From positions 1 through 32,687 of the forward strand of contig JABFSG010000090.1 of the NCBI GenBank assembly GCA_013140715.1: a DNA stretch of 32,687 nucleotides, written 5' to 3'. The stretch is from Nitrospiraceae bacterium (GTDB lineage: Bacteria > Nitrospirota > Nitrospiria > Nitrospirales > Nitrospiraceae). Below are positions 12,668-18,419 of this stretch, one piece after another; position 1 is the first letter of the stretch; the number at the start of each line of letters is the position of its first letter. The notes beneath the pieces were generated by a model. That model was not told the origin of the DNA, did no database searches, and saw only the letters and a list, made by a program, of their open reading frames with translations. The translations under genes and the position numbers were made by a program.

Positions 12668-13309
12668 TCATGCCGGAGAGACAACCCTGACGGCTCGAAT
12701 AAAGCCACGTACTTTTTCGGGGTCTTTCTTGCCCGGCGATCGCTCTACGCCGCTGCTCACATCCACTCCATAGGGCTGCACAATTTGAATCGCCTTCTCA
12801 ACATTGTCAGGGGTAAGCCCTCCGGCCAAGAGAATACTCGCAGCCTTGGCGACTTCTGCGGCAAACTGCCAATCGATCACCTGTCCAGTCCCTCCATAGG
12901 CCTGCTCAGAAAAAGCGTCCAGTACGAACCCGCGAACGCCGGCCCTTCCGCGAAACTCCGCCAAAGCGAGAAACGCGCTCCGGTCTTTCACCCGAAGCGC
13001 TTTCAGGACCGTGCGACCCAGCTCTTTGCAATAGATCGCCGATTCGTTTCCGTGCAGCTGCGCAACGGTAAGCCCACAATCGTCCATTAAATTTCGAACT
13101 ACCTGCTGGTCTTCATCGACGAATACGCCTACCGGAATCACCAAGGGAGGCAGGCTCATTACGATCTGCCTCGCCAGAGTCGGCTCAATGTACCGGGGAC
13201 TTTTCCGGAAGAATACAAACCCCAGAGCATCCGCGCCTGCCTCGACCGCCAGGGCTGCATCTTCGGCATTGGTGATACCACAAATTTTAACTTTGGATGT
13301 ATGGGCCAT
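12668..13309 (-). CDS. trpF: Phosphoribosylanthranilate isomerase
   Basis: TrpF performs the Amadori rearrangement of phosphoribosylanthranilate. The 213-residue TIM barrel has the general base C10 in KVKICGITNAEDA and the general acid D131 in GFVLDAFSEQAYGGTG. The phosphate-binding LLAGGLTPDNV and GVDVSSGVE segments are near the C-terminus. The frame is open upstream to 13402 (a TTG inside the palindromic element), but the family N-terminus begins at ATG 13309, so I use that. The upstream sequence has no clear ribosome binding site. An 81-nt stretch and a 125-bp palindrome separate it from trpC. Confidence 0.95.
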   Translation of the reverse strand: MAHTSKVKICGITNAEDAALAVEAGADALGFVFFRKSPRYIEPTLARQIVMSLPPLVIPVGVFVDEDQQVVRNLMDDCGLTVAQLHGNESAIYCKELGRTVLKALRVKDRSAFLALAEFRGRAGVRGFVLDAFSEQAYGGTGQVIDWQFAAEVAKAASILLAGGLTPDNVEKAIQIVQPYGVDVSSGVERSPGKKDPEKVRGFIRAVRVVSPA

Positions 13310-13390
13310 CTTAGCAATCTGGTGAAAAACAATTGTGCCAAGCCAGAATGTGACTGGTCCACACGTCTGGGACAAGAAGAAGACACCCCT

Positions 13391-13515
13391 CAGGGTGCTC
13401 AAAAAGGCTGTCCAGCAAGGCCACAGGTGAGTCGAAACCGGAGGCGTACCCTCTGGGGTACGTTGAGGATTTCGATGAACCGAGAACGCCGCTGGCAGAC
13501 TTTTTGAGCACCCTG
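13391..13515. repeat. 125-bp palindromic intergenic element with perfect 16-bp terminal inverted repeats
   Basis: The ends CAGGGTGCTCAAAAAG (13391-13406) and CTTTTTGAGCACCCTG (13500-13515) are perfect reverse complements. The centre also forms a hairpin: CGTACCC (13445-13451), loop TCTG, GGGTACG (13456-13462). Intermediate blocks match as well (TCGAAA with TTTCGA; CCAGC with GCTGG), so the whole unit is one long imperfect palindrome. It carries no gene. Its right end abuts the trpC stop codon (13516-13518). I recall very similar GTACCCTCTGGGGTAC-centred units in Nitrospira genomes, in many copies; only one copy is in this window. It could be a non-autonomous mobile element or a REP-like unit, and its transcript would fold into a strong stem. 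Confidence 0.85.
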
Positions 13516-14337
13516 CTATGCATGTGACGAAGCGGGAACTCCTCGTAACTCACGAATCTTGCCTCCGACATCGTCGGCTCGGATGAGGGATTCCCCGATG
13601 AGCATGGCATGGATACCGGCTTCGATCAACCGCATCACATCGGCACGCTGATGAATACCGCTTTCACTGACGATCAGCTTATCGGCAGGAATCCGTTTGG
13701 CCAAACGCAGCGTGACGCCAAGGTCCGTCGTGAAAGTCTTGAGATCGCGGTTGTTGATACCGATCAGTCTCGCTTCCGGCAATCGCTCCAAAACAATGTC
13801 GAGTTCTCGTTCGTGGTGCGTTTCGATGAGCACATCCAAGGCCAACCCACGGGCAAGCGCGTAGAAGTCGATCAATTGTTGCCGTTCAAGCGCCGCGACA
13901 ATCAAGAGAACGGCATCGGCCCCGTGAGCCCGCGCTTCGTAAAACTGAATCTCCTCAACCATGAACTCTTTATCCAACGCCGGCATGGGCACCGATTGCT
14001 TGATCTCGCGGAGGTACTCGAGACTCCCCTGGAAGAAATCCTTGTCGGTCAAGACGGACAGGGCCGAGGCGCCATGGGCATGATACGCCTTGGCTATTCC
14101 GAGGTAGTCGAACCGCTCTGAAAATTCCGGCCGGAGGAGGCCAAGACTGGGTGAGGCCTTTTTGACTTCGGCGATCAGAGCAGGACTACCGGCGGTTCTT
14201 GTCGCTTCGAGGGTCACGGCAAAGCCGAGTGGTCCTGGCGCATCCTGAATTTTTGCCTTCAGCTCCGACAGATAGCCACGGCTTTGTTTATGCCGAAGTT
14301 CTGCTTTCTTATGCTCCAGGATACGAGAAAGAATCAC
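13516..14337 (-). CDS. trpC: Indole-3-glycerol phosphate synthase
   Basis: TrpC closes the indole ring of carboxyphenylaminodeoxyribulose phosphate. The 273-residue TIM barrel has the catalytic lysine region AEVKKASPSLG (K59/K60), the second lysine in VLTDKDFFQG, the acid in DKEFMVEE, and the later motifs IGINNRDLKTF and VSESGI. It is a stand-alone protein, not fused to TrpF as in enterobacteria. The start is GTG at 14337, with AAAGGA about 10-11 nt upstream. The trpD stop is 6 nt away, so the two are tightly linked. Directly after its TAG stop the palindromic element begins. Confidence 0.96.
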   Translation of the reverse strand: MILSRILEHKKAELRHKQSRGYLSELKAKIQDAPGPLGFAVTLEATRTAGSPALIAEVKKASPSLGLLRPEFSERFDYLGIAKAYHAHGASALSVLTDKDFFQGSLEYLREIKQSVPMPALDKEFMVEEIQFYEARAHGADAVLLIVAALERQQLIDFYALARGLALDVLIETHHERELDIVLERLPEARLIGINNRDLKTFTTDLGVTLRLAKRIPADKLIVSESGIHQRADVMRLIEAGIHAMLIGESLIRADDVGGKIRELRGVPASSHA

Positions 14338-17557: not shown

Positions 17558-18202
17558 TTATTCTTGGCCCACGATGAGCTTCTGTCCTACCTCGATAATG
17601 TCGTCCGACAACCTATTCCACTGCCGGATTTTATCGACCGAGACGCCATAGCGACGACTGATCCGAAAGACTGTTTCGCCTGGCTTTACAACATGAGTGG
17701 CGGAGGATCTCATACCGCCCGACAAGGAATCTGATGCCCCGGACCTGGCAGGGACATCCGAACCGACCCCCCGATCCGGTGCACTGAGACCCAAATTATC
17801 CGACACCGATTCACCAGACAGCGGCTTGCGCATCGGGGTGAGCGCCCGTTTCATGTCGACCTTGGCTCTACGTTCCAGCAAGGCAGACTCCTTCATGGCT
17901 TCGGCTTCTTCCTGCACACGGGCCAGCTGTTCCCGGGTAGCCTGCACCTGTGCCGTGAGTTCACGATTCCTGGCTTCATACTCCATCAATTCATTCTTGG
18001 CCCTCTTCGCTTCACTATCAAGCTCACCGGTCCGTTTTTCTTCCTGGGCTAGAAGACGTTGAAAATTTAGACTGCGCGCCTTCTCTGCATCGTATTTCTC
18101 CGCCATCACACAACCGCCCATCAACAGCCCTCCACAGATAATCATGACGATTCGATAACCGGTTTTGGGCATTAACTTGTTCACGTGGTCCTCCCCTTTC
18201 AT
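17558..18202 (-). CDS. LysM-domain lipoprotein with coiled coil
   Basis: The 214-residue protein has a signal peptide with lipobox LMGGC (C31 from the first ATG). A long charged helical region over about residues 35-115 (EEKRTGELDSEAKRAKNELMEYEARNRELTAQ and following) is predicted coiled coil. A serine-rich linker follows, then a C-terminal LysM domain (about 169-212, THVVKPGETVFRISRRYGVSVDKIRQWN), which binds peptidoglycan glycan. It is probably an outer-membrane lipoprotein contacting the wall. Two starts have strong ribosome sites: ATG 18202 (AGGAGG, 5 nt) and GTG 18184 (GGGGAGG, 5-6 nt). The gene heads the tryptophan transcript, 12 nt before trpE; I see no metabolic reason for this. Confidence 0.8.
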   Translation of the reverse strand: MKGEDHVNKLMPKTGYRIVMIICGGLLMGGCVMAEKYDAEKARSLNFQRLLAQEEKRTGELDSEAKRAKNELMEYEARNRELTAQVQATREQLARVQEEAEAMKESALLERRAKVDMKRALTPMRKPLSGESVSDNLGLSAPDRGVGSDVPARSGASDSLSGGMRSSATHVVKPGETVFRISRRYGVSVDKIRQWNRLSDDIIEVGQKLIVGQE

Positions 18203-18224
18203 GGATACCTCCTCTGATGATCGT

Positions 18225-18265
18225 AGGGAGCTTCCCTCTCGCAGCTATGAGTAGACACAAGCTGC
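18225..18265 (-). promoter_or_regulatory. Two small hairpins in the LysM-trp leader
   Basis: GCAGCT (18241-18246) and AGCTGC (18260-18265) are perfect inverted repeats with a 13-nt loop. AGGGA (18225-18229) and TCCCT (18233-18237) form a second stem with a 3-nt loop. Both lie between the candidate transcription start (near 18293) and the AGGAGG site, inside the leader of the trp operon. No T-run follows them and no Trp-rich leader peptide is evident, so classical attenuation is not supported. Confidence 0.3.
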
Positions 18266-18299
18266 CGATCAATAGAAAATCGACTCAACGCTAGCCGTT

Positions 18300-18328
18300 A
18301 CAATAATGTCTATCGCAGCGAAAGTCAA
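18300..18328 (-). promoter_or_regulatory. Sigma-70-like promoter of the LysM-trp operon
   Basis: On the minus strand TTGACT (18328-18323) is followed by a 17-nt spacer and TATTGT (18305-18300), matching consensus at 5 and 4 of 6. Transcription would begin near 18293, giving a leader of about 90 nt. An inverted repeat AACG/CGTT around CTAGC (18287-18299) sits on the predicted start and could be an operator. Confidence 0.5.
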
Positions 18329-18351
18329 AGCGAATATGGCACATTCGTAGT

Positions 18352-18381
18352 TTGACCCACTCCCCGACCCTATGGTACGGT
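18352..18381 (+). promoter_or_regulatory. Weak promoter candidate for ligA
   Basis: TTGACC (18352-18357) and TACGGT (18376-18381) are 18 nt apart. The -35 matches 5 of 6 positions but the -10 only 3. It is divergent from the trp promoter and lies about 40 nt before the ligA start codon. Confidence 0.25.
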
Positions 18382-18419
18382 CGCCCTGTCGCTTCCTCTG
18401 TTCATCACCATCCAGTCCT

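Follow-up and report, generated by a model that had tools for sequence, protein, structure and literature searches.

The stretch of DNA analysed here (the window) comprises 32,687 nucleotides of a contig from a Nitrospiraceae bacterium. It includes a trp operon in the order trpE, a GATase gene, trpD, trpC, trpF, trpB and trpA. trpC, encoding indole-3-glycerol phosphate synthase (IGPS; PF00218), occupies 13516..14337 of the minus strand, and trpF, encoding PRA isomerase (PF00697), occupies 12668..13309 of the same strand, with its start 206 nt after the trpC stop. The intervening DNA contains a 125-nt palindrome (13391..13515), to which the minus-strand TAG stop codon of trpC (13516-13518) is joined with zero gap. 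Complementarity between the outer arms (13391-13410 and 13496-13515) is 95%, and their outer 16 bp match perfectly (CAGGGTGCTCAAAAAG / CTTTTTGAGCACCCTG). The predicted RNA fold of the 125 nt has an energy of -75.4 kcal/mol, compared with -38.5 +/- 3.7 kcal/mol for shuffled sequences (z = -9.9). Arm complementarity, fold and coordinates all agree with the first-pass annotation, which had described a 125-nt palindrome with perfect 16-bp ends abutting the trpC stop.

That annotation also took the palindrome for the whole unit, and on this point it must be revised. In the source genome and the relative G019, an inverted end (consensus GTTTTTCCGCAGCCTG) follows the hairpin at a distance of 73-80 nt in 29 of 125 copies, against 0-2 in shifted control windows. 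In an independent set of copies from many genomes, a recognisable right end at the fixed distance is found in 36 of 82. G019 has two clean empty sites (C97:3482 and C39:8019), from which the hairpin and a tail of ~77 nt are missing together. From these empty sites and the fixed distance of the right end, it follows that the unit is about 201 bp long. It starts with the left end; the hairpin comes next, closed by an inverted, internal copy of that end, and the last 76 nt form a tail with the right end at its extremity.

In the window, the unit extends over 13315..13515 and is read on the minus strand, with the hairpin end at 13515 and the tail end at 13315; these limits agree with the trpC-trpF sites of relatives, both occupied and empty. 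The hairpin forms the left 5/8 of the unit. The left terminal inverted repeat (13500..13515, minus strand) reads CAGGGTGCTCAAAAAG, where the family consensus is CAGGATGCTGAAAAAG. The internal inverted copy, identified by the complementarity of the arms, is at 13391..13406 on the plus strand, and the tail, right end included, covers 13315..13390 on the minus strand. The right terminal inverted repeat, CAATCTGGTGAAAAAC (13315..13330, plus strand), has diverged from the consensus CAGGCTGCGGAAAAAC of the family's right ends, with 3 mismatches in 15. The flanking tetranucleotides are CTAA on the right (13311..13314, minus strand) and ATAG on the left (13516..13519, minus strand), both read as copies of the target. 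The left one, whose TAG is the trpC stop, departs from the YTAR form discussed below; its counterpart is CTAG in relative G006 and CTAA in G008.

The element is dispersed, as the first reading of the sequence had supposed from the style of the repeat. The 3.58-Mb source genome has 41 BLAST matches to the palindrome and at least 135 copies by a covariance model built from 23 copies, and the family occurs in 59 of the 61 genomes searched (the source genome included). These counts contradict the case of a single copy with no homologues. All genomes of the same genus have it, with from 36 to at least 57 matches each, and those of other families of the order from none to at least 57. When a 34-base pattern of one arm was scanned against the genomes of 84,980 species, the matches listed were all labelled Nitrospira, Nitrospiraceae or Nitrospirae/-ota; the same pattern found zero copies in viral contigs, and no Rfam model scored over threshold in the window. 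The palindrome is part of a non-autonomous mobile element present in dozens to more than 100 copies per Nitrospira genome. Some larger hairpins of ~166-173 nt in the source genome (C9:57495-57660, C100:60045-60213 and C24:45491-45659) fit the same model and may constitute a long subfamily.

That the DNA between trpC and trpF was inserted, as first proposed, is confirmed by empty sites in relatives. In G014 and G015, the trpC-trpF site reads CTAAGATG, and the trpC TAA and the trpF ATG are one base apart. Most other relatives with an empty site have similarly tight junctions, the trpF start lying a few nt past the trpC stop. In G008, the occupied site is GCCTAA, the element, then GGCTAAGATG. A YTAR tetranucleotide stands outside the left end in 45 of 98 copies and, in the independent set, in 48 of 82; CTAG alone accounts for 24 of the 98, against a background of 0.09%. 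On the other side, 15 of 29 copies have YTAR next to the right end. Whether the two flanks match copy by copy is less uniform: identical YTAR pairs number 9 of 29 in the source genome and G019 (4.5 expected by permutation, p = 0.009), and 11 of 36 in the independent set (9.7 expected, p = 0.30), where CTAG dominates. Individual copies have matching flanks, such as CTAA/CTAA and TTAG/TTAG. Target site duplication is, accordingly, only partly proven.

This target explains the position of the palindrome, as follows. The hairpin abuts the stop codon because insertion takes place at sites of the CTAG/CTAA type, which contain a stop codon. Since YTAR contains TAR, insertion at a stop-bearing YTAR retains the trpC stop and places trpF 206 nt away. 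In the sequence of events we propose, the ancestral trpC stop would have been part of a YTAR target (CTAAGATG) that led straight into the trpF start. IS5/IS1182-like DDE transposases would recognise the 15-16-bp ends and insert the unit at YTAR; a YTAR would be left on both sides, keeping the trpC stop intact.

The candidate enzymes are suggested by insertion sequences that have the same ends and target. Seven such insertion sequences of 1.32-1.38 kb were found, with inverted ends matching at 14-16 of 16 positions (such as CAGGCTGCGGAAAAAC or CAGGCTGTTGACAAAC) and CTAG or CTAA flanks. In some of those carried by relatives the ends are CAGGCTGCGGAAAAAC, identical to the right-end consensus of the short element, from whose left end they differ at 2 of the first 15 positions. 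The transposases contain PF05598 and PF01609, and several score over the cut-off of the IS5 model NF033581 (L220-L222, L233 and, barely, L215 of G027), whereas the IS1182 score is below cut-off. L221 of G015 and L233 combine an IS5 score over cut-off with 16/16 ends equal to the right-end consensus. The source genome has only one related transposase, a PF05598/PF01609 protein in an insertion sequence at C6:3660-5041 (L195) with CTAG-flanked ends CAGGCTGTTGACAAAC. A gene ending ...KLKELELKPEV stops 8 nt short of L195, whose right flank is truncated at the end of the contig. None of the insertion sequences found has exactly the left-end sequence CAGGATGCTGAAAAAG. A further candidate, a 1.4-kb insertion sequence on C59, proved to be two inverted hairpin-type ends with no transposase between them. 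A reading of the repeats as integron attC sites was dropped, as the ends belong to insertion sequences.

IS5 duplicates YTAR (PMC10359306), and the Nitrospira element has both the YTAR target and the ends of an insertion sequence of that family. The features of a MITE are likewise present: the element is dispersed, short and without coding capacity; it has terminal inverted repeats (CAGGATGCTGAAAAAG / CAGGCTGCGGAAAAAC), albeit diverged in the window copy; and empty sites occur in relatives. Very probably, then, the element is a non-autonomous MITE of ~201 bp, which would be moved by DDE transposases of the IS5 family (IS5/IS1182-like). The first-pass annotation had left the mobilising enzyme, if any, as one it did not know; on the strength of the common ends and target, IS5/IS1182-like transposases can now be put forward as the candidate movers.

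Extragenic palindromes downstream of genes also recall the REP/BIME sequences associated with RAYT, and a mobilisation by that type of enzyme (a Y1 tyrosine transposase) was weighed. The element is palindromic, intergenic and downstream of genes, with a TAG beside the stem, and the source genome has one Y1_Tnp gene. REPs, however, are 20-40 bp long and have a GTAG or CGTC tag at one end and a Y1 enzyme (PMC3733652), whereas the Nitrospira element is about 201 bp long, has YTAR at both ends and shares DDE-type inverted ends with IS5-like insertion sequences; moreover, no copy flanks the single Y1 gene. This origin is therefore highly improbable, and the REP/RAYT reading was rejected. The Y1/RAYT-like gene itself (L123, C102:813-1160) follows a frame ending ...KTKGSGVFS, and the 2.66-kb stretch that includes it is free of hairpin elements.

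The nearest kinds are bacterial MITEs such as ERIC, NEMIS and RUP (PMC2229807), like which the element appears to work; it has the features tested, save that duplication is only partly proven. ERIC/IRU of enterobacteria (127 bp) is an imperfect palindrome of similar length, intergenic, transcribed and listed as a bacterial MITE (PMC2229807). ERIC has TA at its ends and 7-bp inverted ends, whereas the Nitrospira element has YTAR flanks and 15-16-bp ends; it further differs from ERIC in its 76-nt tail, which lies beyond the hairpin, and in having insertion sequences whose ends match its own. Correia/NEMIS and RUP are also short and non-autonomous with inverted ends, and the ends of RUP link it to an IS630 transposase (PMC2229807), much as those of the Nitrospira element link it to IS5. 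They differ in their terminal TA, in the family of their transposase, and in the lack of a long hairpin that is closed by a third, internal end copy. IS5-family insertion sequences share the YTAR target (PMC10359306), and the Nitrospira transposases with common ends score over the NCBIfam IS5 cut-off, but the Nitrospira unit encodes no protein and is only 201 bp long. With IS1272 of the IS1182 family there is transposase similarity, the use of inverted repeats as targets, and turnover of interiors at fixed ends; IS1272 leaves no duplication (PMC5678879), whereas the Nitrospira element has YTAR on both sides.

The stems of the hairpin covary strongly. Both sides have changed in 17 of 40 pairs, 96.6% of cells are paired, and 0 of 500 shuffles equal this. 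Two G.U pairs are almost invariant (23/23 and 22/23 copies), several unpaired boxes are conserved, and 22 of the 23 model copies have a C.C mismatch ten bases in. The window copy lacks this mismatch, and its perfect 16-bp ends are thus atypical. With respect to the typical upstream gene, the antisense strand folds better in 79 of 91 copies (mean -61.6 vs -54.6 kcal/mol). In some cases a gene reads into the element and ends at the element's own TGA, 11 nt inside; four such genes are in the source genome (C94:23984, C98:2356, C24:53364, C36:36543) and four in the independent set.

It could be argued that the hairpin is kept after stop codons for work in the mRNA, blocking 3' exonucleases or terminating transcription and so setting trpFBA below trpEGDC. 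The very stable fold, the strong covariation and the placement directly after stop codons are in keeping with such a role, and the processing of NEMIS transcripts by RNase III provides a precedent (PMC2229807). But the better fold of the antisense strand argues against it, since the strand read with the adjacent gene folds worse, and the near-invariant G.U pairs and the conserved C.C mismatch point to recognition at the DNA level. No strong intrinsic terminator was detected at the window element: the sole terminator-like match is a weak 6-pair stem at 13383-13398, and the A5/T5 runs are inside the long stem. Sister species, furthermore, either lack the element at trpC-trpF or have other sequence inside it. 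We regard an mRNA role as rather unlikely. The strand bias and the conserved G.U pairs and mismatch fit DNA-level recognition better than a selected mRNA hairpin, though they fall short of proof.

A separate question is why the hairpin end, in particular, is so often found at stop codons. YTAR-flanked left ends are at stop codons in 25 of 45 cases, against 17.5% of non-genic YTAR sites (G019 sample), and in 25 of 48 cases in the independent set, against 19% of such sites at independent loci (p = 3e-7). These numbers and those that follow were obtained with a simple codon-usage gene caller and may be inflated, as copies in related genomes are partly dependent and YTAR perhaps survives better when it serves as a stop codon. 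Near gene ends, the available YTAR sites are divided 170 at stops to 172 downstream within 60 nt, whereas left ends are divided 30:7 and 30:5 (p = 2e-4 and 3e-5). For full-length copies, the count at stops is 21 for left ends and 6 for right ends (p = 0.006). The hairpin end is, therefore, found at stop codons beyond what YTAR availability gives, and the tail end less so. The idea that an end lying exactly at a stop codon reflects target choice, selection or both holds up, with YTAR as the target and an excess of hairpin ends at stops. In copies of the source genome that have a gene start on the hairpin-end side, the start codon is often 3-29 nt away, the insertion being just upstream of the ribosome-binding region.

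Could YTAR targeting and the loss of intragenic insertions account for the stop abutment entirely, with no further preference and no function? TAR makes up two of the three stop codons, insertions inside genes are almost absent, and right ends are scattered over stop and downstream positions, all as this simple account would have it. The share of stop codons among occupied YTAR sites (52-56%, against 17.5-19% of those available) does not follow from it, nor do the skewed division of left ends between stops and downstream sites and the left-to-right imbalance at stops given above. We consider such an account somewhat unlikely. A second, bolder proposal, which we hold only tentatively and consider improbable as a whole, is that the IS5-type MITE is inserted or kept in a preferred orientation, its hairpin end being sought or selected at the TAR of stop codons and its interior being later swappable while the ends stay. 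We infer that the bias comes mostly from selection after insertion, which is favoured over orientation-specific insertion. The hairpin placed after the stop would be the most tolerated arrangement, perhaps aided by a weak 3'-end effect.

The trpC-trpF site has itself been subject to turnover. In a tree of trpD-trpC DNA, occupied and empty species are adjacent (G006 with G014; G031 with G015 and G025), and the sister species G000 and G019 have different interiors behind the same left edge. That edge, in which TAG or TAA precedes the first bases of the element (some diverged), is common to three interiors, found in G000/G006/G008, G019/G004/G031 and G005/G030, respectively. At C11:11751, G019 retains both arms of the hairpin, which enclose several hundred bp of another repeat. 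These observations would suit an addition to the MITE reading, namely that interiors are exchanged between copies, with the ends kept, by the inverted-repeat-replacing transposition for which IS1272 (IS1182 family) is the precedent (PMC5678879). However, nesting of one insertion in another, deletion, or gene conversion among the dispersed copies would leave the same picture, and exchange by inverted-repeat replacement is conceivable but on balance doubtful. The occupied and empty states and the changes of interior may reflect repeated insertion, excision, nesting, conversion or IS1272-type replacement. Two other kinds of sequence are associated with the element. One is a further repeat family, in the form of a long palindrome built of TTTGGTTTGTCTGG-like units, and is found inside or beside the element (L125 and L164 in G019, L129 in G004, L131 in G031). 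A third insert, with GGGGTAGC and GCGCGC-rich repeats, takes up the interior of the element, whose outer ends are unchanged (L126 in G005, L135 in G030, and L172 near 18035-18415 in G019).

Literature searches on MITEs in Nitrospira and on IS1182 in connection with CTAG returned nothing relevant. The element, not found described in the literature searched, is well supported as a new family of a known kind, the bacterial MITE, and a common Nitrospira palindrome thereby gains a defined unit, ends, a target and a candidate enzyme. The trpC-trpF site illustrates how DNA elements may come to lie precisely at stop codons and yet leave the gene unharmed: the target contains the stop and is present again after insertion. 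If the proposal of a preferred orientation with swappable interiors were true, many Nitrospira genes would end in an exchangeable DNA hairpin. The bias of the hairpin end, together with the changing interiors at one trp site, makes insertion preference versus selection testable in environmentally important nitrifiers.
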